Origin: a virus
DNA: 64,000 nt
IMG/VR virus record: IMGVR_UViG_3300001679_000053
Location: 38,519-102,518 of that record
Reading direction: 5' to 3' (one strand)
The position numbers and the translations under genes were made by a program. Below the pieces are notes generated by a model. The model ran no database searches. It saw only the letters and a list, made by a program, of their open reading frames with translations, and was not told the DNA's origin. The stretch's first letter is position 1, and every line of letters starts with the position of its first letter. Below, piece after piece: positions 3,962-64,000 of this stretch.

Positions 3962-6900
3962 CTATCCTAATAGCCTAAATGTTTGTCCGATAGCATAGGT
4001 TGAAAAGCCCCAGTTCTCATCATACTTTAACTTAGCCATGTAGGGTCGGTTTAAGTGAATCTTATCTTTCTCGGGTTTAACTGCCCAGCACCTAATTCTA
4101 GTTAGTTCGTTGTTAGAGTCAATCACCTCAACGATCCAATAAAGCTTTCCATTTTTGGTCTTGCGCGCTGTGATCTGGCGTGGAATAAACCAACACACCT
4201 GAAGCTCTGGATCAAACTCAGAAATTGGGGGGATAAACTTTTCTTTAAGCTTCTGGATCATCTCTGGTCCAATTACTAGGTTCATCGGGAATACTCCCGT
4301 GAGATCCGTCTTGAACTGGATGATCTCTGCTTCTGTAAAGTCCCCCTCGGGTCTATACAACTCTATGTTGTCTGCTAGCTTCTTAAGATTCTTAGGGCGG
4401 TTAACCACACAAGAAGACCAGAAGTGTTTACGTCCCGTAAAGCGATCATCTACAATCTGATCCAGCGCTCCACCTCGACACAAAGCATCTAGTGCCTTCT
4501 TATTAAGTTTGCTGTAGGATACCCCTTCGCGGAACAATAGATCCTCTGCGTTCATGAAGGGGCGATTCTCTAATACCTGTTCGATAGCTGCCATGCCAAG
4601 CCCCTTAATGGATGTAAGCGGCTGGATTAGTGTCTTTCCATCTTTGCTAATCTCCCACACAACGCCTGATTTATTGACATCAAGTGGTTCGATATTAAAT
4701 CCGTGGCTCTTGACTGTGTTGATGGCGCGTTCTTTGCGTGCTTCCGGCTCTTTGTCCAGAAACGCTGCGGCCCACTCTGCAGTATAATAAGTCCAGAGCC
4801 ATGCACACTGGTAAGAAATGATACTATATGCTGTTGCATGGTTCTTAGAGAAACCATACTTAGCAAAGCCTTCCATAAGTTCCCAGATCTCTTCTGCAGT
4901 TCTGATGGACATTCCCTTTTCGTTCGCTCCTTGAACAAACTGCTGCTTAAACTCAATCAGGAGATGTTCTTTACCTGTGCCGCGCTTGGTCAAAAGCTTG
5001 CGGATAGTATTACCATCGTCTCGGGAAATGTCCTTGCCAATCCGGTGAGTGATCTCAGAAATCTGCTCTTGGAAAATAACATGGCCATAACTCTCTTCTG
5101 TTATCTCTTTGAAGAGGGGGTGGTACCACTCGATGTCAGCATGCCCTTCCTTGGCGGCAATGTACTGTTCGTGGACCTTGGCTGACAATGGCCCGGGACG
5201 AAAGATACTGGTGACCGCGGAGATCTCCGCAATATTCGTAGGCTTTACACTCTTACAAAATTCTTGAGCCCCTGAGTTAGTGAACTGAAAAGTTCCTGCG
5301 AACTTGCCGCGATGAAAAACATTCTTATATACCTTCTGATCGTTCAAATCAATAGCGTCGGGGTGGAGCTTTTCGTTATAATACTTTTTGATATCCTCGA
5401 ACGTCGGCTCTTCTATTCCGTGATGGCGTCGAAGAATATGTTCGATGCAACCCTCAATCATCTTTAACGTTGAAAGCCCAAGCAAATCAAACTTAATGAA
5501 GCCCAGCGGCTCAAGGTGACGAACGTTCTGTCCTTCAGCCCAAGGCGACTGGCGCACTCCACCACTATTAATAAGCGGCATGTTCTCATTAAGATTCTCA
5601 GAGACGAGCAGCCCTCCTGCATGTCGTGAACATGAGCGTACCTGCCCAACCAAGCCGGCTACACGTGCAGCCACCTCGGGGTAGCGAGCCAGGTATGTCC
5701 TAAGTGTAGGAGAGAACTCCAACACCTCTTCCCATGTCGGTACATACACGCCGGCAGTGATGCCGTGGCGCTGTTTGGAGGGACCTGTGGCTTCACGCAT
5801 CATGACGCTGGTTACAGTGTTGACCTCAGTGAATGGAATCTCATACAGTTTAGAAATGTCCTTAATAAGTGAGCGTAGTTGAAGAGTATTCCAGTTGGAG
5901 ATGGGTGCTACGCGGTCGGCGCCCCACTTCTCAATCAGCCTCTCCTTCAGAGCCATGCTGTCGGATACATCGGTATCAATATCGGGGTAGTCTGTAGCGT
6001 CTGAACGCAGGAAGCGTTCGAAGGGTAGGTTATATTTGATAGGATCAATCTGGGTGATTTTCAGCACATACGCCACCAGCGATCCACATGCGCTGCCGCG
6101 GCCTGGTCCAACCAGCATAATGTCTGCAGCTTCGTCAGTGATCGCCTTCATCGTCAGGAAATATTTACTGAAGCCGCGGCCGTCAATAACGTCTAACTCA
6201 TATTTCAGTCGCTTAACATATTCAGGATTTTTATGAAGATCCATAAGTCGGAGCCCATCAATCGCATAGCGTAGAAGCGCTTCCGTAGCTGTTGCTCCCT
6301 CTGGAACTACAAAGTCTGGCAGCCGCACAGTGGCGTCTGGCATGAAGTTTTCGATTCGCTCATGAGCAATCCGATAAGTCTCCTCGATGCTCTCTAATAC
6401 CAGATCATCATCGTAACTGAAATCACTATCTTCTGTGTACTTCTGGTAACTCTCCCACATCTGATCACCGTTCTTGGGATATAGCTCATAACCAATTACG
6501 TCTACCGATTCAGGAAGTACCTCTTCTTTTTCTCCGTCAGTCTCTTGTCCTTTCTTCCATTGTGGTTTTCCCTTCCCAAGCCAGCCGAGGCGCTTATACA
6601 TCTCTCTATCTTTCCAAGCTTCAGGGTTCGGGTAATGGCTGTCTGCGGTAGAAATTAGTTTAAGGTCAAAGTCCTTTGCCATTTGAATAATGTATTGATT
6701 CAACTCATGCTGTTCTTGAATGTTGTTCCACTGTAATTCGGCGTACCATCTGTCTCCGAAAATAGATTGCATTTCCACTGTCGTTTCACGCATAGCGTTT
6801 AAAACAGCCTCTGGTCCCTTCTCGCGGTTCTCCCAGTAGTTTCCAGCGTACACCCCACCCAAGCATGCAGACGCAGCGATAACGCCTTCTGAGTGCTTCC

Positions 6901-7417
6901 GGAGCAGATCATAGTCCATTCGCGGGTACCGATAGAAATAATCATCGGTATAGCTGTGAGATATTAGCTTGAATAAATTGTTTAGTCCCGTCTGATTTTG
7001 TGCTAGGAGAATAAGGTGTCGCCGGCGCTTCAAGATCGGCTGTGCATTCTTAGTATCTCCTTCATCCTCGACTGTGGCTCCGGACTGTGTGTCCTTCTTT
7101 GCGCTGCGGGCTTTCTTCTTGTCTGCCATCTCAGTATCATACGCTTCGCGCCACTCTTTAATCGATGTGGTAAAGTATGCCTCCACCCCGAAGATGGGTT
7201 TAAAATCTCTCCCTTCCGCTTTCATCTTCTTGGCATGGAGCACCTGCCACGAAAGACCATTCATGTTTCCATGATCCGTCAGTGCTAAGGCGTCCGAGCC
7301 ATTCTCATATGCAAAATCCATATGCTCTTGCGGGTATCCCACCGCATCAAAAATAGAGCCTGCAACTGAATGTGCGTGCAGACCAACAAACTTAATCTTG
7401 GATTCTTGACGATCCAT
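3962..7417 (-). CDS. dnaE: DNA polymerase III alpha subunit (DnaE-type)
   Basis: 1151 residues, close to bacterial DnaE (about 1160). It starts with a PHP domain (HAHS at 14-17, TDHGN at 47-51, a late ADSHY at 258-262). The catalytic palm has GPGRGSACGSLVAY (437-450), PDIDTD (478-483) with two metal-binding Asps, and KFDLLGL (642-648) with the third. The RHAGG block is near 598-602, the FRPGPL and FQEQ motifs follow, then YGFSKNHATAYS, a helix-hairpin-helix region near 960, and a C-terminal OB-like domain. This is a C-family replicase, unusual in T4-like phages, which normally carry a B-family polymerase. The ATG has GGAGG upstream, and its start overlaps the stop of the nucleotidyltransferase-like gene. 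Confidence 0.95.
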   Translation of the reverse strand: MDRQESKIKFVGLHAHSVAGSIFDAVGYPQEHMDFAYENGSDALALTDHGNMNGLSWQVLHAKKMKAEGRDFKPIFGVEAYFTTSIKEWREAYDTEMADKKKARSAKKDTQSGATVEDEGDTKNAQPILKRRRHLILLAQNQTGLNNLFKLISHSYTDDYFYRYPRMDYDLLRKHSEGVIAASACLGGVYAGNYWENREKGPEAVLNAMRETTVEMQSIFGDRWYAELQWNNIQEQHELNQYIIQMAKDFDLKLISTADSHYPNPEAWKDREMYKRLGWLGKGKPQWKKGQETDGEKEEVLPESVDVIGYELYPKNGDQMWESYQKYTEDSDFSYDDDLVLESIEETYRIAHERIENFMPDATVRLPDFVVPEGATATEALLRYAIDGLRLMDLHKNPEYVKRLKYELDVIDGRGFSKYFLTMKAITDEAADIMLVGPGRGSACGSLVAYVLKITQIDPIKYNLPFERFLRSDATDYPDIDTDVSDSMALKERLIEKWGADRVAPISNWNTLQLRSLIKDISKLYEIPFTEVNTVTSVMMREATGPSKQRHGITAGVYVPTWEEVLEFSPTLRTYLARYPEVAARVAGLVGQVRSCSRHAGGLLVSENLNENMPLINSGGVRQSPWAEGQNVRHLEPLGFIKFDLLGLSTLKMIEGCIEHILRRHHGIEEPTFEDIKKYYNEKLHPDAIDLNDQKVYKNVFHRGKFAGTFQFTNSGAQEFCKSVKPTNIAEISAVTSIFRPGPLSAKVHEQYIAAKEGHADIEWYHPLFKEITEESYGHVIFQEQISEITHRIGKDISRDDGNTIRKLLTKRGTGKEHLLIEFKQQFVQGANEKGMSIRTAEEIWELMEGFAKYGFSKNHATAYSIISYQCAWLWTYYTAEWAAAFLDKEPEARKERAINTVKSHGFNIEPLDVNKSGVVWEISKDGKTLIQPLTSIKGLGMAAIEQVLENRPFMNAEDLLFREGVSYSKLNKKALDALCRGGALDQIVDDRFTGRKHFWSSCVVNRPKNLKKLADNIELYRPEGDFTEAEIIQFKTDLTGVFPMNLVIGPEMIQKLKEKFIPPISEFDPELQVCWFIPRQITARKTKNGKLYWIVEVIDSNNELTRIRCWAVKPEKDKIHLNRPYMAKLKYDENWGFSTYAIGQTFRLLG

Positions 7418-8295
7418 TATTCCTCCGAGGTATATGGTAATTTAACATGTATGTGGGGTTTTGTCAACCCCTCTTCAGGAGTATTTATTATATTGTCTGA
7501 AGATAGAAAATTACGATACCCACTCCAATTAGAGATATCGTAATGCCAATCAAGCTCTACTTTGTGAGCATTTTTATCGTCTACTGCCTCAAAAACGTCT
7601 TCCAGAGTGAAGTATCGGGCTGACCACCGGTCTTGCAGTGGTAATTTTTGGCTTGGGTACTGCTGGCCCGGTGAAGGGGGTAAATATTCCCTTGTTGTCT
7701 TTTGGTTTACTGTTCTTCGGCATAATTTAAAGTCTTCTCCTGTCATTGTAAATGAAATTGGTAAATTATTTTTAATATGGTTTTGTTTGTGAGTGAAGAA
7801 AAAATTCTTCTTTGGATCCGAGATTTCTCGGCGCCAGGTTCTCACTTGGTATACATCAAATGCCGAAAGAGGAAACGAAATATAATATTTGTCGGGTGTG
7901 ATCCATTGAGAAATATTATGAGCGACTCTCCAAGCACAGTGTATGCCATATAAAACCGACCACCCATAAGAATCACGTCTATCGCGATCCTTCGGGTGAA
8001 TCGGTACGTAGTAAATAGGTATTTCTTTTCGTTGTTCCGAACTAAATTTGGCTGGACTGTGATAATATACCGGATCATATACCCAGTCACCCACGATTTC
8101 TCTAATAACAGGAGCCAAATCATCGTTTGCCACAATCCAAATAGTATTGCATCCAGCCATGGCACACTCAAAAACTGATTTCTGAATAGCTGAAAATCCA
8201 TGACCAATAGGTAGAAGAACTTCCGGTATCGCCACCTGAAAATTAGTCTTAAGATTAGCTAAGGGTATTATGCCTGCTAGGTGCAAACGGCTCAT
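7417..8295 (-). CDS. Nucleotidyltransferase-like (GT-A fold) protein
   Basis: 292 residues. The N-terminus follows the pattern of sugar-1-phosphate nucleotidyltransferases: IIPLA, then PEVLLPIGHG, then an AGCNTIWIVAND strand; a later YGWSVLYGIHCA stretch corresponds to the region where these enzymes have GTAxAL. The glycine-rich GxGxRL signature is missing between IIPLA and PEVLLP, so catalysis is uncertain. The C-terminal third is unfamiliar. It overlaps the unknown gene upstream by ATGA and DnaE downstream by TAATG, and together with the upstream gene forms a cassette under the promoter at 9187-9215. Possible roles: nucleotide-sugar synthesis for surface or DNA modification; this is inference. 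Confidence 0.5.
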   Translation of the reverse strand: MSRLHLAGIIPLANLKTNFQVAIPEVLLPIGHGFSAIQKSVFECAMAGCNTIWIVANDDLAPVIREIVGDWVYDPVYYHSPAKFSSEQRKEIPIYYVPIHPKDRDRRDSYGWSVLYGIHCAWRVAHNISQWITPDKYYISFPLSAFDVYQVRTWRREISDPKKNFFFTHKQNHIKNNLPISFTMTGEDFKLCRRTVNQKTTREYLPPSPGQQYPSQKLPLQDRWSARYFTLEDVFEAVDDKNAHKVELDWHYDISNWSGYRNFLSSDNIINTPEEGLTKPHIHVKLPYTSEE

Positions 8296-9179
8296 AAATA
8301 TTTTAAAAATCTATCGTAGGCCACGCTAGCGGACGACAAAGAATTAAGCAAACTTTGTGTACTTTGCTTCGGAATCGTGACATTCGCTTCACTCGGTGTG
8401 GCTTCAGTTCTTTGCTGATGCGTTTGGCGTCCAATGCTAGTTGTTCTAAATTTGTAATGTTTCGGGTTTCCGGCTGTTGTGTATCCACCTGCAAATTGTC
8501 CTTTCATTCCTCTGGATTCCATTTCATGAATGGTTTTAAAGCGCGCCATTGTTTCGGAATGATCAAAATCCAATAGCTGTTGTTCTGTTAGTGTTGATAC
8601 CGCACAAGCATCTCTAACAGGAGTATTTCCATCAATACGGTCGGAAGAATAAAACCATATCTCGCTGACAAAATCATCATTTGTGCGAATATGGTCGATT
8701 TCATGCTTGCCGCCTTTATTGAATGCAATATAATCATAACATATATATGTGGTCTCGTCAAGAGATTTCTCGGTGGCCAGTCCGGCGGCTGATTGATCGC
8801 CAAAGTATAAGCACTCATTAAACTTCAATTCAAAAATCTTCGAATATTCATTAGAACAAACGAGAGTATCACCATTATAACGCATCGTGTGACACAAATT
8901 CGAAAGGGGCGCCTTGCCATCTAAAGAAAGCAAAAACAGCAACCTCTCCCACAGAACGCTTTTCGGGATGCCTATAAGTTTTTCTTCTTCAAACGTCGTT
9001 AAACTTTTAGGAGGCCGGCTGGGGGCCTTCAAAAAAGTCAAGTCTTGGCCTGGTTCCAAATAGTCAAATCTAAAGGGTCGTTGTGCCTTTGTAAAAAAAA
9101 TAGGACAGTTATTGTTGAATGCGTAAAGAACAGCGTCCAAGCAACTTCCTACCACTATTTTATCGTACTCAAATATCAA
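8292..9179 (-). CDS. Protein of unknown function paired with nucleotidyltransferase-like gene
   Basis: 295 residues, no confident family. The start has a Rossmann-like look: a beta strand then GSCLDAVLYA, then PIFFTK, reminiscent of a dinucleotide-binding beta-alpha-beta unit, but too little to assign a cofactor. The C-terminal 80 residues are polar and Ser/Thr/Gln-rich. The reading frame is closed by a stop two codons before 9179, so the earliest start is TTG at 9179, which has no Shine-Dalgarno and lies only about 7 bases from a perfect TATAAT. Translation may be leaderless, or start at a later GTG near codon 10. Its end overlaps the next gene (ATGA). Confidence 0.6.
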   Translation of the reverse strand: MIFEYDKIVVGSCLDAVLYAFNNNCPIFFTKAQRPFRFDYLEPGQDLTFLKAPSRPPKSLTTFEEEKLIGIPKSVLWERLLFLLSLDGKAPLSNLCHTMRYNGDTLVCSNEYSKIFELKFNECLYFGDQSAAGLATEKSLDETTYICYDYIAFNKGGKHEIDHIRTNDDFVSEIWFYSSDRIDGNTPVRDACAVSTLTEQQLLDFDHSETMARFKTIHEMESRGMKGQFAGGYTTAGNPKHYKFRTTSIGRQTHQQRTEATPSEANVTIPKQSTQSLLNSLSSASVAYDRFLKYL

Positions 9180-13208: not shown

Positions 13209-14579
13209 TTAATTCCTTCTAAATTTTTCATATTTATTTTTAAGCAACCCTTTTTGCATTGTAGCGGTTAAGGCAACGGGGGTTCCTGGTATTATTCCAT
13301 TGGTGACAGGAGATCTGGGGAGTATCTTAATACTGACATTGGATGTGTCCATAAATATGTTAAACACCATGCCATCTGGTCCGTTCCTATTCTTGGCAAT
13401 AAAAATTTTGCCTTTATTGTTTTGTTTATCCTCAATTGTTCGTGATACCGAAAAGATAAAGTCCGCAACGAAGCATTTGTTAAAGGCTTCTGATATTTGT
13501 TCCATCGTAATCACCTCTGCACTAAGTCCTGCTCGATTTGTTTGTGAAGCGGTCCAGATAGGGCACTGGAACTCTGTCGAGATAGCTCTTAACTCCTCAT
13601 AAATAGATCCTAACTCGTCGCGCTTTTCTTTGCGGACAATAACTGGCCTTAAAAGATCAGCATAATCTACAATTATCAGCCCGGGCTTGATGCCGCGTTT
13701 AACAAGGCGCGAAAGATGGGAACGGATAGTATTGGTAGTAGCAGACTTCGTAGGATACTCCTTGATGATCAGTTTACCATCAATGTCCTTGATTTGTTCA
13801 TATATTTCGTCTTTAAAAGTACGTAAATCAGAAAGAGGATACCCGGTAATACAACTATCGTAGCGATTTGCAATGACTGTGTCCTGCAGTTCTAGTGTAT
13901 AATGTACTACCACCTTCCCTTCGATCACAGCATTTGATCCTAGATGTACGAGGACCATAGACTTTCCAGCGCCGGTCGGAGCAATTACTACCCCCAACTC
14001 ACTTTTACCTAATCCTCCACCTACAATACCATCAATATCTTTCCACCCAGTAGTAACCGGATTTCGGTGTTTAATTTCATATCTTTTTTCAAAGTCTGTG
14101 ATATATTCATAGCCAAAGTTATTATCCGATCCCAGTTTAAGCGCTTCATTTATTGTACTGGAAATTTCGTCAAAGGAACAGCTCTGCAGGAGTCCCACAG
14201 ATTTTAGCATGGCCTCTTTAAGATTCTGCTTACGGCAAAAGTCCAAAGAAGCTTCTTTAATATACTCAATATCTTGAATCTCCCGCGTGTGAATTCTAAC
14301 AAAATAATCCCTTACCTGTTTTTGAATTACACCGTCTTCACCTTCTAACTCGGTACGGAGTATGGTAGTGACCGCATCCACAGATGGATGCTTGTTATAC
14401 CTGTCCCGATAGTCCAGTATTTTCGTAATAAAAACACGTAGATACTCTAGTTCAAGAAAGCCAACATCTAGAACTTCCGTTATCTGATCCGCGAACGGAC
14501 GATCCTCGAAAATTAGTTGTACTAGTCCCTCTTGGAAGCTCTTTCCATACCTTCCAAAATTTACATTATCTGGCGACAT
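13209..14579 (-). CDS. DnaB-type replicative helicase (T4 gp41-like)
   Basis: 456 residues. A helical N-terminal domain (1-150) precedes a RecA-fold motor with Walker A APTGAGKS (200-207), a HYTLEL strand and Walker B LIIVDYADLL (about 303-312), followed by ASQTNR, the Q/R sensor motif of DnaB helicases. It unwinds the replication fork as a hexamer on the lagging strand. No primase is visible in this window. It has its own sigma70 promoter (14607-14634), and a GAGG site precedes the ATG. Confidence 0.92.
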   Translation of the reverse strand: MSPDNVNFGRYGKSFQEGLVQLIFEDRPFADQITEVLDVGFLELEYLRVFITKILDYRDRYNKHPSVDAVTTILRTELEGEDGVIQKQVRDYFVRIHTREIQDIEYIKEASLDFCRKQNLKEAMLKSVGLLQSCSFDEISSTINEALKLGSDNNFGYEYITDFEKRYEIKHRNPVTTGWKDIDGIVGGGLGKSELGVVIAPTGAGKSMVLVHLGSNAVIEGKVVVHYTLELQDTVIANRYDSCITGYPLSDLRTFKDEIYEQIKDIDGKLIIKEYPTKSATTNTIRSHLSRLVKRGIKPGLIIVDYADLLRPVIVRKEKRDELGSIYEELRAISTEFQCPIWTASQTNRAGLSAEVITMEQISEAFNKCFVADFIFSVSRTIEDKQNNKGKIFIAKNRNGPDGMVFNIFMDTSNVSIKILPRSPVTNGIIPGTPVALTATMQKGLLKNKYEKFRRN

Positions 14580-14649: not shown

Positions 14650-15639
14650 TTATTTAAGTGCCAGGGCTGCAGCGTCAACACAATCCCTCGTGATCTTATT
14701 TAAGTGTGTACGTAAATCATCCCAATTTAACTCACCAAAGCCGTCCTCTCGCATAAGCTTTATTACTTCAGTTTTGTTGAAAGTGCATTCAAAATTTTCT
14801 AAAGAATAGTTAACATGATCTTTTGCTTGAATAGACATTTGAGGACTGTAAAGTTGCATCATCTTATAATTGTGTTCGATCACGTCGCGGCCCTCCACGA
14901 TGTTGGTAAAAAACTTAAGATTGGTACCTGAGTTCTCACAAAATTCTAAAACCTCATCTATGGTGTAATCTTTTTCGGAAGACAAGAATGACAGACGATT
15001 CTTTACCGACGTAAACCCGGCGCCGCGGATGCCTGGAAGGTTGTCGGAGGTATCTCCAATAATTGAGCGCGCCAGAGCCATGTTCGTTGGATGTACACCG
15101 GTCTGCTCTATGATCCTTCTGACGTTTAGAAGCTCTTTCTTTACTGGGCGCCATAAAATTGTCTCGTCATCGCACAGCTGCATAAAGTCTTTATCATTGG
15201 ATACAATAATCTTTTGCCAGCCGTCATAATAACTTGAAGTAGTTAGGTGTGCAATAACATCGTCTGCCTCTATTTTTTCTATCATAAACTGGATGATAGG
15301 CATGCTGTTGAAATATTCAATGACTCGGCTTTGCTGCCAAATCTTATTTTGCAATTCCTCGTTCTCAGTTAGATTATGGAAGGCGCGGTTAAGGCGGATT
15401 GGTTTTCTGCCGGCCTTATAGTTCTTGTCCATGTCTTTGCGCTTACGGGAACCATCTGGTCCGTCCCACACAATTACAATCTGATTGGGATTGGTTTCTC
15501 TTACGAGCTTTTGGAGAATCTTCATGAAGCCCTTGAGCCCACCAATGGGTTGACCATTAGAAGACAATGAGGGGTCTACAATATATGCTCTCAGATATGC
15601 GTTTAGCGCATCTACTATTAATACTCTTTTATTCTTCAC
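14650..15639 (-). CDS. 5'-3' exonuclease / RNase H-like flap nuclease
   Basis: 329 residues of the PolI-N/T4 RNase H (FEN) family. Acidic metal ligands are recognisable in VLIVDALNAY (near 6-15), VIVWDGPDG (56-64), IEADDVIA (about 123-130), SNDKDF and GDTSDNLPG, the last followed by the helix-hairpin-helix GIRGAG. It removes RNA primers and 5' flaps from Okazaki fragments, complementing the polymerases, neither of which carries its own 5' nuclease. The start is GTG with AAAGG upstream, just after the RecA/UvsX gene stop. Confidence 0.9.
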   Translation of the reverse strand: MKNKRVLIVDALNAYLRAYIVDPSLSSNGQPIGGLKGFMKILQKLVRETNPNQIVIVWDGPDGSRKRKDMDKNYKAGRKPIRLNRAFHNLTENEELQNKIWQQSRVIEYFNSMPIIQFMIEKIEADDVIAHLTTSSYYDGWQKIIVSNDKDFMQLCDDETILWRPVKKELLNVRRIIEQTGVHPTNMALARSIIGDTSDNLPGIRGAGFTSVKNRLSFLSSEKDYTIDEVLEFCENSGTNLKFFTNIVEGRDVIEHNYKMMQLYSPQMSIQAKDHVNYSLENFECTFNKTEVIKLMREDGFGELNWDDLRTHLNKITRDCVDAAALALK

Positions 15640-15643
15640 TTTA

Positions 15644-16786
15644 CTATGCCTTTACTGGAACTGTGAGATCTGCAGGATCTTCATAAAAAGCTTTTGCGTC
15701 ACCCTGGCGCTTATCAAACTTCTGAATTATCTCCTCATCCATTAGTGCAGTAACATGCTCTCTAAACTCTGCGTCTTCATTTACCAACTCGGTCCACTTA
15801 GAAGGCTGGAACTTCTTTTCATAGCCGTCGGCTGTCTTAATGGTGTACCATGCGCCGGCACTGGTGAGACATGAAGAGCCCTTGATCGCATCGAACCACG
15901 ACTCTTCATCGCGGATGCCCACTTCGTTCCCCCACAGAATGCGGAAAGCACATGAGCGCCCTTGTGTGCCAAAGCGAGACTTCTCCAGTTTCACCTTAAC
16001 CTCGGATCCAATACGGAATCCCTTCTCGTCTTCAATAAAGGAAGCCTTTGCCTTGCGCCCAGTCAACCAGATGCGGAGAGAATAGGAATAATGCATTGCC
16101 TTTCCTCCCGGTGTCATATACGGAGTCGTCATAGCAATGATGCGAGCGTTTGGTCCGCTGGGAATGTTAGTCTTCAACTGATTGAGGACCAGGAACGTAG
16201 CCTGTTTGTCGGCAATCGGAATAATCAGCTTGGACATTCCCTTGGCCAAAATGCGCGCCTTCACTGCCATCGATGATTGGGGATTAAAGTCTCCCTCAAC
16301 ATCAGATACAGAAGGTGTAAGTGCGAGTGAATCCCAGATGAACAGTAGTTGATCTTCGGCTGCTCCCAGCAGTTCTTCTACAGTCTCCAATACAAACTCC
16401 ACAGAGGAAGCCTGGATGTACATTAGTCGCTCTAGGTCACATCCTGCCTGCTCCAAGAAGCGTGGGTCGATGGCTGACTCAGAATCGAAGTAGACGATAA
16501 GCTTGCCCGTTTTCTGAGCGTTTGCGGCTATTTGCGCGGCCATGTAAGATTTGCCTGTGGATTCAAGTCCTGCAATCTCCGTCACCTTTCCTACTGGAAC
16601 GCCGGCACGGTGGCCCTTGCTGATGATTGAGTCCAGCCAGCGGGAGCCGGTGGGGATCCATTCCTTTACTGACGTGGGATTTTCTCCCGTCAGATCGTGT
16701 GCGACATTCCTGCCGGCTTTCTTGTTAACCATTTTCATTAGGTCTTGTATTGCTACACGACCAGCTTTTGCTTTAGCTTTAGCCAT
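15644..16786 (-). CDS. uvsX: RecA/UvsX-like recombinase
   Basis: 380 residues. Walker A GLESTGKS (73-80), the YFDSESAID strand, Walker B LLFIWDSLAL and a later PGGKAMHYSYS segment match RecA/UvsX. It forms filaments on ssDNA and drives strand exchange for recombination-dependent replication and repair. The N-terminal 45 residues are basic, and the C-terminal region after 290 is longer than in E. coli RecA, as seen in phage enzymes. A good sigma70 promoter (16805-16833) and a GGAG site lie just upstream, so it leads an operon with the 5' nuclease. Confidence 0.93.
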   Translation of the reverse strand: MAKAKAKAGRVAIQDLMKMVNKKAGRNVAHDLTGENPTSVKEWIPTGSRWLDSIISKGHRAGVPVGKVTEIAGLESTGKSYMAAQIAANAQKTGKLIVYFDSESAIDPRFLEQAGCDLERLMYIQASSVEFVLETVEELLGAAEDQLLFIWDSLALTPSVSDVEGDFNPQSSMAVKARILAKGMSKLIIPIADKQATFLVLNQLKTNIPSGPNARIIAMTTPYMTPGGKAMHYSYSLRIWLTGRKAKASFIEDEKGFRIGSEVKVKLEKSRFGTQGRSCAFRILWGNEVGIRDEESWFDAIKGSSCLTSAGAWYTIKTADGYEKKFQPSKWTELVNEDAEFREHVTALMDEEIIQKFDKRQGDAKAFYEDPADLTVPVKA

Positions 16787-19296: not shown

Positions 19297-20076
19297 TTAA
19301 CCTGACATTAGTTCATCAAATGCACGGTCCACGTCATTCTTTCCACCCTTATTTTGGTGGTTGTATGACGTTGTCTCAGACGAGCGCGCTTCAGCGGTTT
19401 TTTCGCCGGCTAACTGCTCATCGAGAATCACATCTACCTGCTCTGGAGTAAGGCGCTCAAAAAGAGAATCAAACTCTGGAATACCATCTAGGAGGGCGGG
19501 GACGGCTTCATTATCCTTAAGCAGTGGCGAAGTGTTTCTACGCATCTTCAGGCTTGTTTGTGGGTACGCGCCCGGCTTATTGGGCTTCGTATAGGTTAGG
19601 GTGATATCGGTGCCCTCTTGCACATCAGTGACATCACCGTATTCAGGATCAAGAATATACCCGAGCAAAAGTTCATACGCCTGCTTTCCGTAGCCGTAAA
19701 TCTTCGCTCCCTCATCCTCTCGACCTCGTACAACGACTGGTGAGAAGTACCGAGTGCGCACAAAGAGTGACTTTGCTAGCTTCTTGGTTTCCTCATCGTT
19801 TGTGTCTGTTCCTTCACGCCACAACTGTGAGGCAAAATCGCAGATGGGGCAGCGTTCTCCGTAGTTTCGCTTCGGACACACAACACCTCCCCTATGATCT
19901 CCCACGTTATAGTGGAAGAACATTTCCTTCAACGGATCTCCATCCGCTGTTGGTACAATACGGATATCCGTATCTCCCTCGTCTGGCTTGAACCAGTGTG
20001 AAGTTCCGTCAGAACCTCTTCCGTCACCGCGCAAATTTGCGAGCTTGCGGCGCATAAGCTCCATGTTGATTCCCAT
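19297..20076 (-). CDS. ssDNA-binding protein (T4 gp32-like)
   Basis: 259 residues with gp32-type organisation: a basic N-terminus (MRRKLANLRG), a core holding a zinc-type cluster CPKRNYGERCPICDF preceded by His, aromatic OB-fold strands, and an acidic C-terminal tail ending VDRAFDELMSG. It coats single-stranded DNA at forks and recombination intermediates, working with the recombinase, helicase and polymerases nearby. It has its own promoter (20100-20127), a strong AGGAG site and a downstream terminator, consistent with the high expression this class needs. Confidence 0.85.
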   Translation of the reverse strand: MGINMELMRRKLANLRGDGRGSDGTSHWFKPDEGDTDIRIVPTADGDPLKEMFFHYNVGDHRGGVVCPKRNYGERCPICDFASQLWREGTDTNDEETKKLAKSLFVRTRYFSPVVVRGREDEGAKIYGYGKQAYELLLGYILDPEYGDVTDVQEGTDITLTYTKPNKPGAYPQTSLKMRRNTSPLLKDNEAVPALLDGIPEFDSLFERLTPEQVDVILDEQLAGEKTAEARSSETTSYNHQNKGGKNDVDRAFDELMSG

Positions 20077-20099: not shown

Positions 20100-20127
20100 A
20101 TTATAACACTCTATTCAAGATTGTCAA
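20100..20127 (-). promoter_or_regulatory. Consensus sigma70 promoter of the ssDNA-binding protein gene
   Basis: Minus strand TTGACA (20122-20127), 16 bp spacer, TATAAT (20100-20105); the -35 lies within the last codons of the upstream gene. Confidence 0.85.
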
Positions 20128-20971
20128 GAGTATTTGTTTGAATTGCGTTAGTGTGGGCAACGCAGAGCCCAAAATCTTGCTCATGAAAAGTTTCATAGAT
20201 TGCATATGAATGGCGTAAATAGGCGTTTGAATTCTTTCTTTTCAGACTTTCAACAATACGCTTATGTAATCCTCCATCGCTCTCTAATTTTTTATCATTT
20301 ACACATAGATAATAACATATTTCACGAGGGTTGTCAAGCTGAAAGAACCATTTTTCTTGAAGTTTTTCTACGGTGGCAAATCCTATCGCCCTGATCCTGT
20401 TTATTTCTTGGGGGCGAGACACATTGCCAATCTCCGGTTCGTTGTGAGTGAAATAGTTGATAAAATGAATGGCTGAAACAATGGTTTTGTTTAGAGAATC
20501 ATAAAAATTCTTAATGGGAACCGTATTTCCCATGGCCAGTTCTACAAATTCGTTGGAAATTATAGTGAGACTGTGAAGTAAGCCTGAGCGAGCATATTCC
20601 TGTAGGATCCCTCCTACTACCTTTTCTATCTTTGCGGGAGTGTCAGCTAATAGGTCGGTGTCGGGCTTTATATAGAATACATCTACTTTCTTATCTTGGA
20701 GTTGTTCTAAAATTCCTAATGAGTAATTAGAACTTAATGAGGATCCCATAATAAAAACCTGCATGTGTTTGTCAGCATCTTTAAAAAACTTTTTTAAATT
20801 AGGAATATTGTCTTCGTATTCTTCTGGACTGTCGAAAGTCTTAAGTTTAAAGTTCCCCTTGCTGTTCTTTTTAACTTTGTCATTTAAACAGTAAATATTA
20901 TATTGAGAATGTTCTTTAAATCTCGCGGCGATGGCGCTGGCGCCGTTGCCGATGCCCACTACCGACATCAT
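20111..20971 (-). CDS. Possible divergent tubulin/FtsZ-like protein
   Basis: 286 residues. The order of segments parallels FtsZ: VVGIGNGASAIAARF at 4-18 (FtsZ GxGGGGSN loop), NIYCLND at 25-31 (FtsZ INTD), VFIMGSSLSSNYSLG at 72-86 in the place of the GGGTGTG signature, VDVFYIKPDTDLL at 96-108 (FtsZ VTKPF), SLTIISNEF at 134-142 (FtsZ IVIPND) and a long helix FYDSLNKTIVSAI at 156-168. The signature glycines are lost, so GTP binding or assembly may be altered or absent. The C-terminal half is less clear. This is a pattern-based inference, not a firm assignment. It overlaps the family A polymerase gene upstream and precedes the ssDNA-binding protein gene. Confidence 0.45.
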   Translation of the reverse strand: MMSVVGIGNGASAIAARFKEHSQYNIYCLNDKVKKNSKGNFKLKTFDSPEEYEDNIPNLKKFFKDADKHMQVFIMGSSLSSNYSLGILEQLQDKKVDVFYIKPDTDLLADTPAKIEKVVGGILQEYARSGLLHSLTIISNEFVELAMGNTVPIKNFYDSLNKTIVSAIHFINYFTHNEPEIGNVSRPQEINRIRAIGFATVEKLQEKWFFQLDNPREICYYLCVNDKKLESDGGLHKRIVESLKRKNSNAYLRHSYAIYETFHEQDFGLCVAHTNAIQTNTLDNLE

Positions 20972-22155
20972 AGTTTTAGCTCGTTCAGATCTAAGTAATT
21001 TGGGCCCGCAGACATATTGACCAGATAGCGTCCCAACTGGTTATTCGCAAAAATCTCTTTGATCTCGGGTACGAGATGTCTTTCTTTACTATCTAAATCT
21101 ATCACGATTTCATCATGTACTATATGGGAGATAAATGAACTCTTATCCTTCAATAATTCCGAAATTCGGCAAGCGCGTTCTAACACCAAATCAGAGGTGG
21201 TGCTCTGGATCAAATAATTTAAGGCGCGCCGGCGATCCACTTTAATTTCCCTTCCGAATATAGTACTAATATATCCTTCTGAGTACCATTTGTCAAGTAC
21301 TTTTTCTCGATCATAGTATTCAGTATTAATTGCCTTAGAATCAGGATTATAGAGCCATGCAAAGAAAATGGTCTTAGCTTCTTCTCTGGGAATATCGGCG
21401 CGCTCAAGAACGTTCTTCAGATTCCACGAATGAATATCTTCTGGCGGCTGTGGTATACCACTGAGGGCCAACAGGGTGCGTACTTCTGCTCCGTTATAGT
21501 CCAGCGACAGGAACCAGTCATTGCGAGGCTTTATAAGCCTCCTAAGCTCTTTTCTCATTGTCAGTATAGGGAATGAGTGGGTCCTCGTGGTAAGACGCCC
21601 TGTGACGGTACCAAACAGGTTATAGTCAATATAGTTTTGCTTATTAAGATACTTTTGCGCTTCTTTACGGAGAGCGCTCTTTACAAAAATTTCGCGGCAC
21701 TCCTCATTATTTAAATTGAGCGTTTGATACTTGATCTGGTGAAGGAGTGTTTGTACGTCGCTTAAGAACGTATAGTTAGAGGGTTTATCGCATGTTTGAA
21801 AAACATGTTCGGTGATCTTATTTTTTATTTCTAAGAATCTCACGATAAAATCATGTGGCACCAAATCAAAAAAGCAGTGTTCATATAGATCCACTTTAGC
21901 CAGTTCAAAAGAGCGTCGGTAAGCCCTCATTTTTTTGGCTGATGCGGCATACTCTTCTTTAAGTGATTCCGGGCATGCAGCCTCCAAAGAAATACCACCA
22001 CAATATAGCCATGCGTATTCCGCTGCGGTACCCTCTAGCGTACCTGAATACTTCCAAGTTCGATCTAAATTAGAGGGAATCTGGTCAAAGAGGAGCTTAC
22101 CATCCTGATAAACCCCTACACACTCTTTCTTGTCGTCGATCGTTTGGAAGTACAT
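20968..22155 (-). CDS. Compact family A DNA polymerase
   Basis: 395 residues, well short of PolI. The palm/fingers motifs are in order: FGTVTGRLTT, motif A LDYNGAEVR (usual DYSQIELR) near 218-226, motif B as R-x3-K-x3-F-x3-Y (in REEAKTIFFAWLYN), a later LNYLIQSTTSDLV helix, and motif C HDEIV near 344-348. Both catalytic Asps are present, so polymerisation is plausible. There is no recognisable 3'-5' exonuclease or 5' nuclease domain; the latter is a separate gene. With a DnaE replicase in the same genome, this enzyme may serve repair, gap filling or a special replication step. The stop overlaps the next ATG. Confidence 0.85.
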   Translation of the reverse strand: MYFQTIDDKKECVGVYQDGKLLFDQIPSNLDRTWKYSGTLEGTAAEYAWLYCGGISLEAACPESLKEEYAASAKKMRAYRRSFELAKVDLYEHCFFDLVPHDFIVRFLEIKNKITEHVFQTCDKPSNYTFLSDVQTLLHQIKYQTLNLNNEECREIFVKSALRKEAQKYLNKQNYIDYNLFGTVTGRLTTRTHSFPILTMRKELRRLIKPRNDWFLSLDYNGAEVRTLLALSGIPQPPEDIHSWNLKNVLERADIPREEAKTIFFAWLYNPDSKAINTEYYDREKVLDKWYSEGYISTIFGREIKVDRRRALNYLIQSTTSDLVLERACRISELLKDKSSFISHIVHDEIVIDLDSKERHLVPEIKEIFANNQLGRYLVNMSAGPNYLDLNELKL

Positions 22156-22160
22156 TAGCC

Positions 22161-23456
22161 TTACTTTTCTAAATCAATTCTATCGAACTTACTCTTAATA
22201 TAGCTTAAAGAGCCCATATAGTCAAACGTTTTATTTAAAATTCTTTCAAAAATGTCGACAGCTGCCCGGGGTTTCCTTCGAAACACCTCCATACAATCAT
22301 CAATCAATAACGTTTTTTCATTATTTGTATAAGGGCTCTCTTCTTCCATAAATCTGATTGTACAGTATAGCCTAAAGAAAAACAACTCACTATATCGCTC
22401 TTTGAAAATTTGGGGGGGATATTCTATCGGCCTGGTGGTCTTTACTGTTGGTGCCTTAGAGCTATTACACGTAACTGCCTTAAAGGAGGGATATTTAACC
22501 TGATTATAAAAGCGGAGCATTATATTTCTAAAGTCTCGATAATATCCTCGGTGTGCTGGCGTATATGCTCCACGTAAAACCCTGTCGGTGCTACCCATGT
22601 TATATGTTGCAGCCTTTCGCAGCATAGGACTAGAGGCGATATCAGCTACAAGGCGGCCAGGATATAGTTTGTCCACCATAAAGCCATAACTACGACAGGC
22701 ATTTAGATAATACTCCCAATTTGAACTATAGGTGAGTTTGAGTATTTTTTCTACATCGGCGGCGGGTGAAATATCTGCGATTTCTATGACGAGACCAGAG
22801 ACATGAACGGGGCAATAGTTGCTTTTTATGAATGCGGGAAAAGTGAAGGGTTGCTTTCGGGCAGTCTTTTTAAGGTAGGGTAAAAGTTTAGCTAGAAAGT
22901 CATCAAAACTTATAATCGATTCATTATCATCTTTAAAAATTGAGTCGATTGCATCTTTGTATATTCTCAAGTGATCATAGTAAAGTTTATGTGGGTTTTC
23001 ATAGGCTTTATATACCTGAAGCTCCGATAAATAGGGATCGGCGGCACTAATTTTCTTAGACATCACAGATTTTCTAAATTGGTATGTCATTTCATTGAAA
23101 TTTTCTTCTACAAAGTTTAAAGCCTTAAAATCACCCTCCGTTTTACTTCCTCTGATATTTACAATTTGTGTGTTGGGGTCGCTAACAACCATAGGGACAA
23201 ATAGCCGGCTGGTGCGCCCATATAGATGTTTCTCAGCAAAATTGAAATCTACCACGTTAGAATAATCTTCTGTGGCTATCGCGACTTCATTTTTATACCG
23301 AAGGCGCTTGTTGTATAGATTCTTGGTTGTGTTATCTGCATACAAGCTTTCTATGTATAGATCACTCATATTGGTTGGAGTGCTATCACCGGCCTGTGCA
23401 TCCGTGTCTGAAGGAGCTTCACTTTGACGGTAAATAATATTATCAGAAGATGCCAT
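22161..23456 (-). CDS. Unknown protein between tail and replication modules
   Basis: 431 residues, no recognised family. The first 30 residues are polar and low complexity; the rest is rich in aromatic and charged residues with mixed helix and strand propensity, no membrane span and no enzyme motif that I can name. It follows the 1171-residue hub-like protein by 24 bases, so it could be the last baseplate gene, or the first of the replication set. The ribosome binding site (GAGAAA) is weak. Confidence 0.6.
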   Translation of the reverse strand: MASSDNIIYRQSEAPSDTDAQAGDSTPTNMSDLYIESLYADNTTKNLYNKRLRYKNEVAIATEDYSNVVDFNFAEKHLYGRTSRLFVPMVVSDPNTQIVNIRGSKTEGDFKALNFVEENFNEMTYQFRKSVMSKKISAADPYLSELQVYKAYENPHKLYYDHLRIYKDAIDSIFKDDNESIISFDDFLAKLLPYLKKTARKQPFTFPAFIKSNYCPVHVSGLVIEIADISPAADVEKILKLTYSSNWEYYLNACRSYGFMVDKLYPGRLVADIASSPMLRKAATYNMGSTDRVLRGAYTPAHRGYYRDFRNIMLRFYNQVKYPSFKAVTCNSSKAPTVKTTRPIEYPPQIFKERYSELFFFRLYCTIRFMEEESPYTNNEKTLLIDDCMEVFRRKPRAAVDIFERILNKTFDYMGSLSYIKSKFDRIDLEK

Positions 23457-63523: not shown

Positions 63524-64000
63524 TCATGTTGCTAATCCATTCATACTTAGTATCGCAATCAATCCGGGCACATTCTTTCGGACGTAAACGCCCGAGAAAA
63601 GTGTCTCGCATCGGCCGCCGACATAAGCGATTGCCGACTCAATGTTTTTACTGATCTTTGGATCAGCCACCATCTCTTCCGACACAACCAGAATGAGCGA
63701 ACCTGCGGCGGCCTTACCTTTCGGTGGAGGACATGCAGAACGATTCATGCAGTTATGAAGGATCACCGATCCAAGCTTTCCAGTATTTGGATCCTTTATC
63801 ATAGTTGAGCCCATAAAGGCTCGTCCATCATTGCCCAAGCATGTTTCCAAATCCTTGCTATCGAAAGATTGGATCGGTGAATCCTCGGTGGAGAGTTTTA
63901 AAACTTGAGCTAATGATTTAGCAAATTGTGTGTTGGCGACAGGATACATGCCAAGCATGCCGATTCTGCCGCGGAGTAAGCGTGTTGCTCGTTCGTTGTC
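63524..64000 (-). CDS. Unknown protein, probably beginning beyond the window
   Basis: The frame stays open from its first ATG (63958) to the window end, and the 14 extra codons (DNERATRLLRGRIG) look coding, so the true start probably lies past 64000. The visible 144+ residues are Ala/Ile/Val-rich with Cys near 40, 70 and 77 and a CMNRSACPPPKGK segment. No family recognised. If the ATG at 63958 is the start, the protein is 144 residues. Confidence 0.5.
   Translation of the reverse strand, partial: DNERATRLLRGRIGMLGMYPVANTQFAKSLAQVLKLSTEDSPIQSFDSKDLETCLGNDGRAFMGSTMIKDPNTGKLGSVILHNCMNRSACPPPKGKAAAGSLILVVSEEMVADPKISKNIESAIAYVGGRCETLFSGVYVRKNVPGLIAILSMNGLAT

Follow-up and report, generated by a model that had tools for sequence, protein, structure and literature searches.

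Phage tubulins are known mainly as guanosine triphosphate (GTP)-using filaments of a few jumbo phages. PhuZ and TubZ are both filaments of this kind (PMC3678025, PMC4244570), and in phiKZ-type phages the phage DNA is positioned by PhuZ (PMC4244570, PMC13282480). FtsZ paralogues lacking GTPase motifs have been mentioned for archaea (PMC2875224). We analysed a stretch of 64,000 nucleotides (the window), part of the 102,518-bp virus record IMGVR_UViG_3300001679_000053, in which the gene at 20111-20971 on the minus strand encodes a 286-amino-acid protein, here called the target. The target is predicted to have a tubulin/FtsZ fold, has lost the GTPase signature and is encoded directly behind a small family A DNA polymerase (PolA). 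The original prediction, made from the sequence alone, had described it as a possible degenerate tubulin/FtsZ-like protein next to a DNA polymerase; its reading frame was confirmed, and the loops listed for it (GIGNGAS, CLND, MGSSLSSNYS, KPDTDLL, and IISNE) are all present. The target is a genuine gene and not a chance open reading frame, because viral contigs contain at least 589 stretches homologous to it, its alignment columns are strongly conserved and its predicted structure is confident.

The AlphaFold2 model of the target, built from 44 sequences and without templates, has a predicted local distance difference test score (pLDDT) of 88.8 and a predicted template modelling score (pTM) of 0.88. 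The strands (S) and helices (H) of its N-terminal domain follow the order S1-H1-S2 ... S4-H4-S5-H5-S6-H6-H7, and its C-terminal domain contains the elements S7, S8, H10, S9, and S10. A Foldseek search of the PDB with this model gave 726 matches at E<=0.001, and the 50 best were all FtsZ, TubZ or tubulin, aligned over the whole length (best E 3.3e-11; template modelling (TM) scores of 0.62-0.72, normalised by query). The leading viral structure matches include proteins of uncultured phages annotated as 'FtsZ Cell division GTPase', 'Cell division protein' and 'Tubulin'. Model and search together give the target the tubulin fold, with its two domains and the core helix H7, in support of the likeness to tubulin/FtsZ that had been proposed; an unrelated Rossmann fold lacking this two-domain layout, which would have spoken against that likeness, was looked for in both and was not found. 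The likeness to FtsZ had been thought to extend to about residue 170, an end point that was not borne out, as the Foldseek match reaches the C-terminus.

The sensitive hidden Markov model (HMM) search that had been suggested as a check gave no support: the target is detected neither by PF00091 nor by an FtsZ profile, and neither profile nor HMM comparison with FtsZ reached significance. The E. coli FtsZ sequence used for profile comparison is identical over residues 11-315 to PDB 6ll6_A. This absence of sequence-level support, a root-mean-square deviation (RMSD) from FtsZ of 4.3-5.9 Å in nearly all listed matches, and the shallow alignment (Neff ~2) are in line with a modelling artefact, in which AlphaFold2 would have drawn a Rossmann-like protein as FtsZ. 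We nevertheless consider such an artefact very improbable, in view of the high pLDDT and pTM reached without templates, the proper order of the two domains and of the helix that connects them, the number of PDB matches and an E-value of 3e-11 to FtsZ. The divergent homologue L361 argues in the same direction, since its first loop, GIGDAGCNVV, is spaced like GVGGGGGNAV of FtsZ. The homology with FtsZ/tubulin thus rests on predicted structure, plus this hint from the first loop of L361, and on these grounds it is very likely that the target has the tubulin/FtsZ fold.

Residues were counted over 91 distinct sequences of the target family, and loop equivalences between target and FtsZ were assigned by hand from the strand order. 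The loss of the GGGTGTG signature, originally noticed in a single sequence, holds for the whole family: at the T4 place GGGTG[ST]G is absent and the family reads GSS[YF]SSNY instead, with G76 in 91/91, S80 and S81 in 88/91, and N82 and Y83 in 89/91 sequences. The catalytic NxDxxD/E of T7 is likewise absent from the hand-assigned loop, where the family has EPEIGxVSxPxEI, and both T4 and T7 are altered in every one of the sequences. In T1, GxGxxxS is kept and the guanine-contacting Asn position is mostly Ala; Asn is found there in few members only, e.g., L361, L046, and L073. Fixed or nearly fixed positions are P103 and D104 in T5, N140 in T6 (90/91), N161 in H7 (91/91) and an aromatic residue at 157 (90/91). 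As a group, the presumed pocket loops are somewhat more conserved than the remainder of the target (p=0.02). Because the replacement loop is nearly fixed across the family, the pocket appears to be remodelled and conserved and not decaying. The term degenerate is therefore misleading, since a nearly invariant loop has taken the place of the signature. Judged from these sequences, FtsZ-type GTPase activity has in all likelihood been lost: the target very probably lacks the corresponding chemistry, and its pocket has very probably been remodelled under selection.

A remodelled, Ser/Asn-rich pocket could also accommodate another phosphate-bearing ligand, for example a replication-status nucleotide, which would make the target a ligand-binding sensor or enzyme. 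That the former nucleotide-site loops (the T4-like loop, T1, P103/D104 of T5, N140, and N161) are among the most conserved parts agrees with this explanation. However, the H5 end and the C-domain strands are conserved as highly as the pocket loops, so that such conservation need not mark a ligand site, and no known ligand motif was found in Pfam and PHROGs searches. We regard a role of this kind as improbable.

Successive scans of IMG/VR identified 22, 280, and then at least 589 homologous stretches of the target, and the G+C content of the loci of fetched relatives ranges from 35.7 to 46.8%. The family belongs to marine T4-like myoviruses of an uncultured lineage and is widespread. A GTDB scan of 84,980 prokaryote genomes revealed no relative, and a tblastn search of 50,697 named phage records gave no real match, the nine weak matches (E 0.7-9) all lying on unrelated polymerase or hypothetical genes or on unannotated stretches. 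Searches of Pfam and PHROGs with the target gave nothing significant, without a match to PF00091 or to the PhuZ family phrog_4733; the sole PHROGs match is a weak one to phrog_11015. Among the baseplate-region proteins of Flavobacterium phage immuto no homologue was detectable. E. coli FtsZ as a query against the viral contigs found nothing, and a DNA-pattern scan of viral contigs for GGGTGTG identified many ordinary FtsZ genes of ~310 amino acids with the full signature (in L091-L210; examples are L101:818-1822 and L148:432-1367). None of these stands beside the polA-target cluster, and they were used only for building an FtsZ profile.

The neighbour of the target had been taken for a DNA polymerase, which holds, and the two reading frames overlap (Table 1). 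polA lies directly upstream of the target in 94/96 loci, with an overlap of exactly 4 bp in 94 of the 95 unique loci measured. Other genes directly precede the target in L240, where polA is still present, and in L246, a short fragment with pentapeptide-repeat genes before the target (L246:91-1780, plus strand) that ends before polA. PolA has the motif A Asp, the motif B R...K...F...Y and the motif C HDE of family A polymerases (D219, R257, K261, F265, and H347-D348-E349 in 101/101, Y269 in 99/101), and its structure model matches Klenow-type polymerases. No exonuclease domain could be recognised in the 395 amino acids of PolA by Pfam, motif or fold comparison. Downstream of the target, the gp32-like gene is followed further on by genes for UvsX, a 5'-3' exonuclease, DnaB, and ribonucleotide reductase. 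The median identity across loci is 59% for the target, 57.5% for PolA, 77.5% for gp32 and 84% for UvsX; the target and PolA are about equally fast in their divergence, and gp32 and UvsX are slower. Fold and operon of the target are well supported, and the function that we infer, as a partner of PolA within the replication module, is somewhat more probable than not.

The position of the gene also bears on a possible role in host takeover, in which the target would be an FtsZ-mimicking decoy that caps host FtsZ filaments and halts host division during infection. A protein that has the complete FtsZ-like fold but changed T4 and T7 loops would indeed be a chain-terminating subunit. The position and presence of host-takeover genes are usually variable, whereas the target is fixed between polA and gp32 in ~90 diverse loci, and its conservation is slow and centred on the pocket. 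Because of this strict position in the replication cluster, a decoy is considered quite improbable.

A search of the relatives with PF00091 identified another member of the superfamily, a protein of ~383 amino acids that is above the cut-off in three long contigs. This second tubulin scores 42 bits against a cut-off of 33 and has the T1, T4, T6, and T7 motifs (GVGGGG, GGGGGTGSS, DNER, SFDSKDLE), which are conserved in 46 sequences. The window shows it only from T6 onward, as a C-terminal part. In L283 it has 383 amino acids (L283:1297-2448, plus strand). Its gene directly follows an SbcC/gp46-like gene, and in both L283 and L284 the two genes overlap by 4 bp. A scan of GTDB genomes did not, at its sensitivity, find the second tubulin, and its only match in named phages is a weak stretch of Bacillus phage G. 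Target and second tubulin occur together in ten contigs, including both near-190-kb contigs. The pairing of the target with polA and the presence of an ordinary-looking tubulin suggest a system of two tubulins, hitherto uncharacterised, that is linked to replication of the phage DNA.

We tentatively propose that the target is a tubulin/FtsZ-fold pseudo-GTPase that belongs to the core of the replication module and is plausibly a partner of the intact tubulin. The target would be made in step with PolA and bind it, and would act as a non-hydrolysing scaffold or adaptor through which PolA and the single-strand binding protein are attached to a tubulin structure built by the phage. The intact second tubulin, encoded beside the SbcC/gp46-like gene, would supply the dynamic filament, of which the target could be a cap, a nucleator or a cargo adaptor. 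Replicating phage DNA might thereby be placed in the cell, much as by PhuZ in phiKZ-type phages. That the target partners the second tubulin directly is possible although doubtful, and a two-component tubulin system, consisting of a GTPase-competent filament and a non-hydrolysing subunit co-translated with PolA that docks the replication machinery, is somewhat unlikely.

Four results weigh against the proposal. Comparisons of the target with FtsZ, the second tubulin and a combined profile gave hhalign probabilities of 1-2% and hmmsearch scores near decoy level. The residual co-divergence of target and PolA is weak and does not exceed that of other pairs (partial r 0.21, vs. 0.53 for polA-gp32). 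A similar cluster, in which PolA is larger and the slot contains no tubulin, is present in the huge phage LR756508; PolA therefore needs none in that phage, and the polA-tubulin association belongs to the T4-like lineage. Finally, 12/16 contigs with the second tubulin are without the target. All of the ten that were checked among these 12 are also without polA and uvsX, and fragmentation therefore explains the missing target as well as true loss does.

Another explanation is that the target serves the small PolA alone as a dedicated subunit (for processivity, fidelity or structure), with an exapted fold unrelated to filaments or to the second tubulin. Such a subunit would fit the strict 4-bp coupling, which is to polA only, the short PolA without a recognisable exonuclease domain, and the distance of the second tubulin gene, which lies far off in the genome. 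It would also fit the predicted C-domain, reduced at H8/H9, which may form part of the FtsZ filament contact. However, PolA of LR756508 manages without the target, the co-divergence of target and PolA is weak, and the occurrence of a tubulin fold beside a real tubulin in one virus would have to be a coincidence. We consider a role confined to PolA unlikely on present evidence. If instead the proposed pairing of pseudo-GTPase and intact tubulin is correct, phages evolve tubulin pairs with divided labour, and T4-like phages may assemble a tubulin-based structure for replication; with a two-component system, a heterotypic cytoskeleton would exist in phages other than those that form a nucleus. 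In hundreds of ocean viral contigs, a conserved protein of predicted tubulin fold that has dropped the signature of the GTPases is coupled to a DNA polymerase, and its genome also encodes a signature-bearing tubulin; the two proteins are of a size suited to direct in vitro work.

The features of the window are listed in Table 1. By the sequences of its terminase, portal, major head protein, and tail sheath, the virus is a T4-like myovirus. The 431-amino-acid protein upstream of polA always has this position in the lineage and diverges fast (~40% identity). The virus encodes two DNA polymerases, one DnaE-type and one small family A, and DnaE is also encoded by long relatives; proteins of 292 and 295 amino acids, neither of which matches any family, adjoin dnaE (window 7417-9179, minus strand). 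Outside the window, the virus record contains a GroEL-like chaperonin (L214:12161-13756, minus strand), near which a ClpP-like protease was recognised by eye (L214:15499-16140), and an open frame that by eye resembles part of IMP dehydrogenase, an enzyme of GTP synthesis (L214:17897-18541, minus strand). HSP60 correlates with tubulins in jumbo phages (PMC7824862).

Table 1. Coordinates of the target, its loops and other features in the 64,000-nucleotide window.
Feature	Position	Strand	Remarks
Target, predicted tubulin/FtsZ-fold protein without GTPase signature	20111..20971	-	286 amino acids, ATG start
T1-like loop GIGNGASA, residues 6-13	20933..20956	-	G6, G8 in 91/91; S12 in 87/91
Loop at the FtsZ T4 signature place, GSSLSSNY, residues 76-83	20723..20746	-	Nearly invariant GSS[YF]SSNY
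H7-like core helix, residues 153-176	20444..20515	-	AlphaFold2 model; N161 in 91/91
Loop at the T7 place, residues 178-190 (EPEIGNVSRPQEI), without catalytic Asn/Asp set	20402..20440	-	Hand-assigned equivalence
ATGA overlap, polA stop/target start	20968..20971	-	4 bp; same offset in 94/95 unique loci
Small family A DNA polymerase (PolA), motifs A/B/C intact	20968..22155	-	395 amino acids; PF00476, E 2.5e-14; fold match to KlenTaq
Upstream neighbour of polA, no family match	22161..23456	-	431 amino acids; conserved position
gp32-like single-strand DNA-binding protein	19297..20076	-	PF08804; directly downstream of target in 86/86 loci
UvsX/RecA-like recombinase	15644..16786	-	Family match
5'-3' exonuclease	14650..15639	-	Family match
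DnaB-like replicative helicase	13209..14579	-	Family match
DnaE-type (family C) DNA polymerase	3962..7417	-	PF07733 and others
Second tubulin, C-terminal 158 amino acids, cut by record end	63524..64000	-	89% identical to residues 224-380 of the 383-amino-acid protein of L283

Searches of the open-access literature turned up neither a phage tubulin lacking the signature nor a pair such as target and second tubulin. Compared to FtsZ (e.g., PDB 3vo8, 2vaw, and 9v7v), the target shares the predicted two-domain fold, the strand order, the core helix H7, the T6-like Asn and the spacing of the aromatic residue and Asn in H7. It differs in the absence of GGGTGTG, of the T7 catalytic residues and of a PF00091 match, in an identity of 8-14%, in a C-domain with reduced H8/H9 and in a gene that adjoins a DNA polymerase. 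With PhuZ and TubZ it has in common a predicted tubulin fold borne by a phage, and TubZ structures are among the 50 best matches; those two are GTP-using filaments, the target lacks the signature and has no match to phrog_4733, and its phage is T4-like and not phiKZ-like. The best viral structural match is A0A6J5RW92 ('FtsZ Cell division GTPase' of an uncultured Caudovirales phage, BFVD; E 2.1e-11, TM 0.76 normalised by query), a protein of 452 amino acids with 11% identity to the target. The archaeal FtsZ paralogues, set against the target by description only, are like it superfamily members without the motifs, but are cellular, not of phages and not linked to a polymerase. The second tubulin shares superfamily and genomes with the target, and both genes directly follow a DNA-processing gene (SbcC/gp46-like for the second tubulin); unlike the target, the second tubulin is ~383 amino acids long, keeps T1/T4/T6/T7, has an N-terminal extension and is 81-90% identical between viruses, compared to ~60% for the target. 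The target falls within FtsZ/tubulin fold space yet lacks two features that define the GTPases, and it is therefore best classified as a tubulin-fold pseudo-GTPase rather than as FtsZ or PhuZ.
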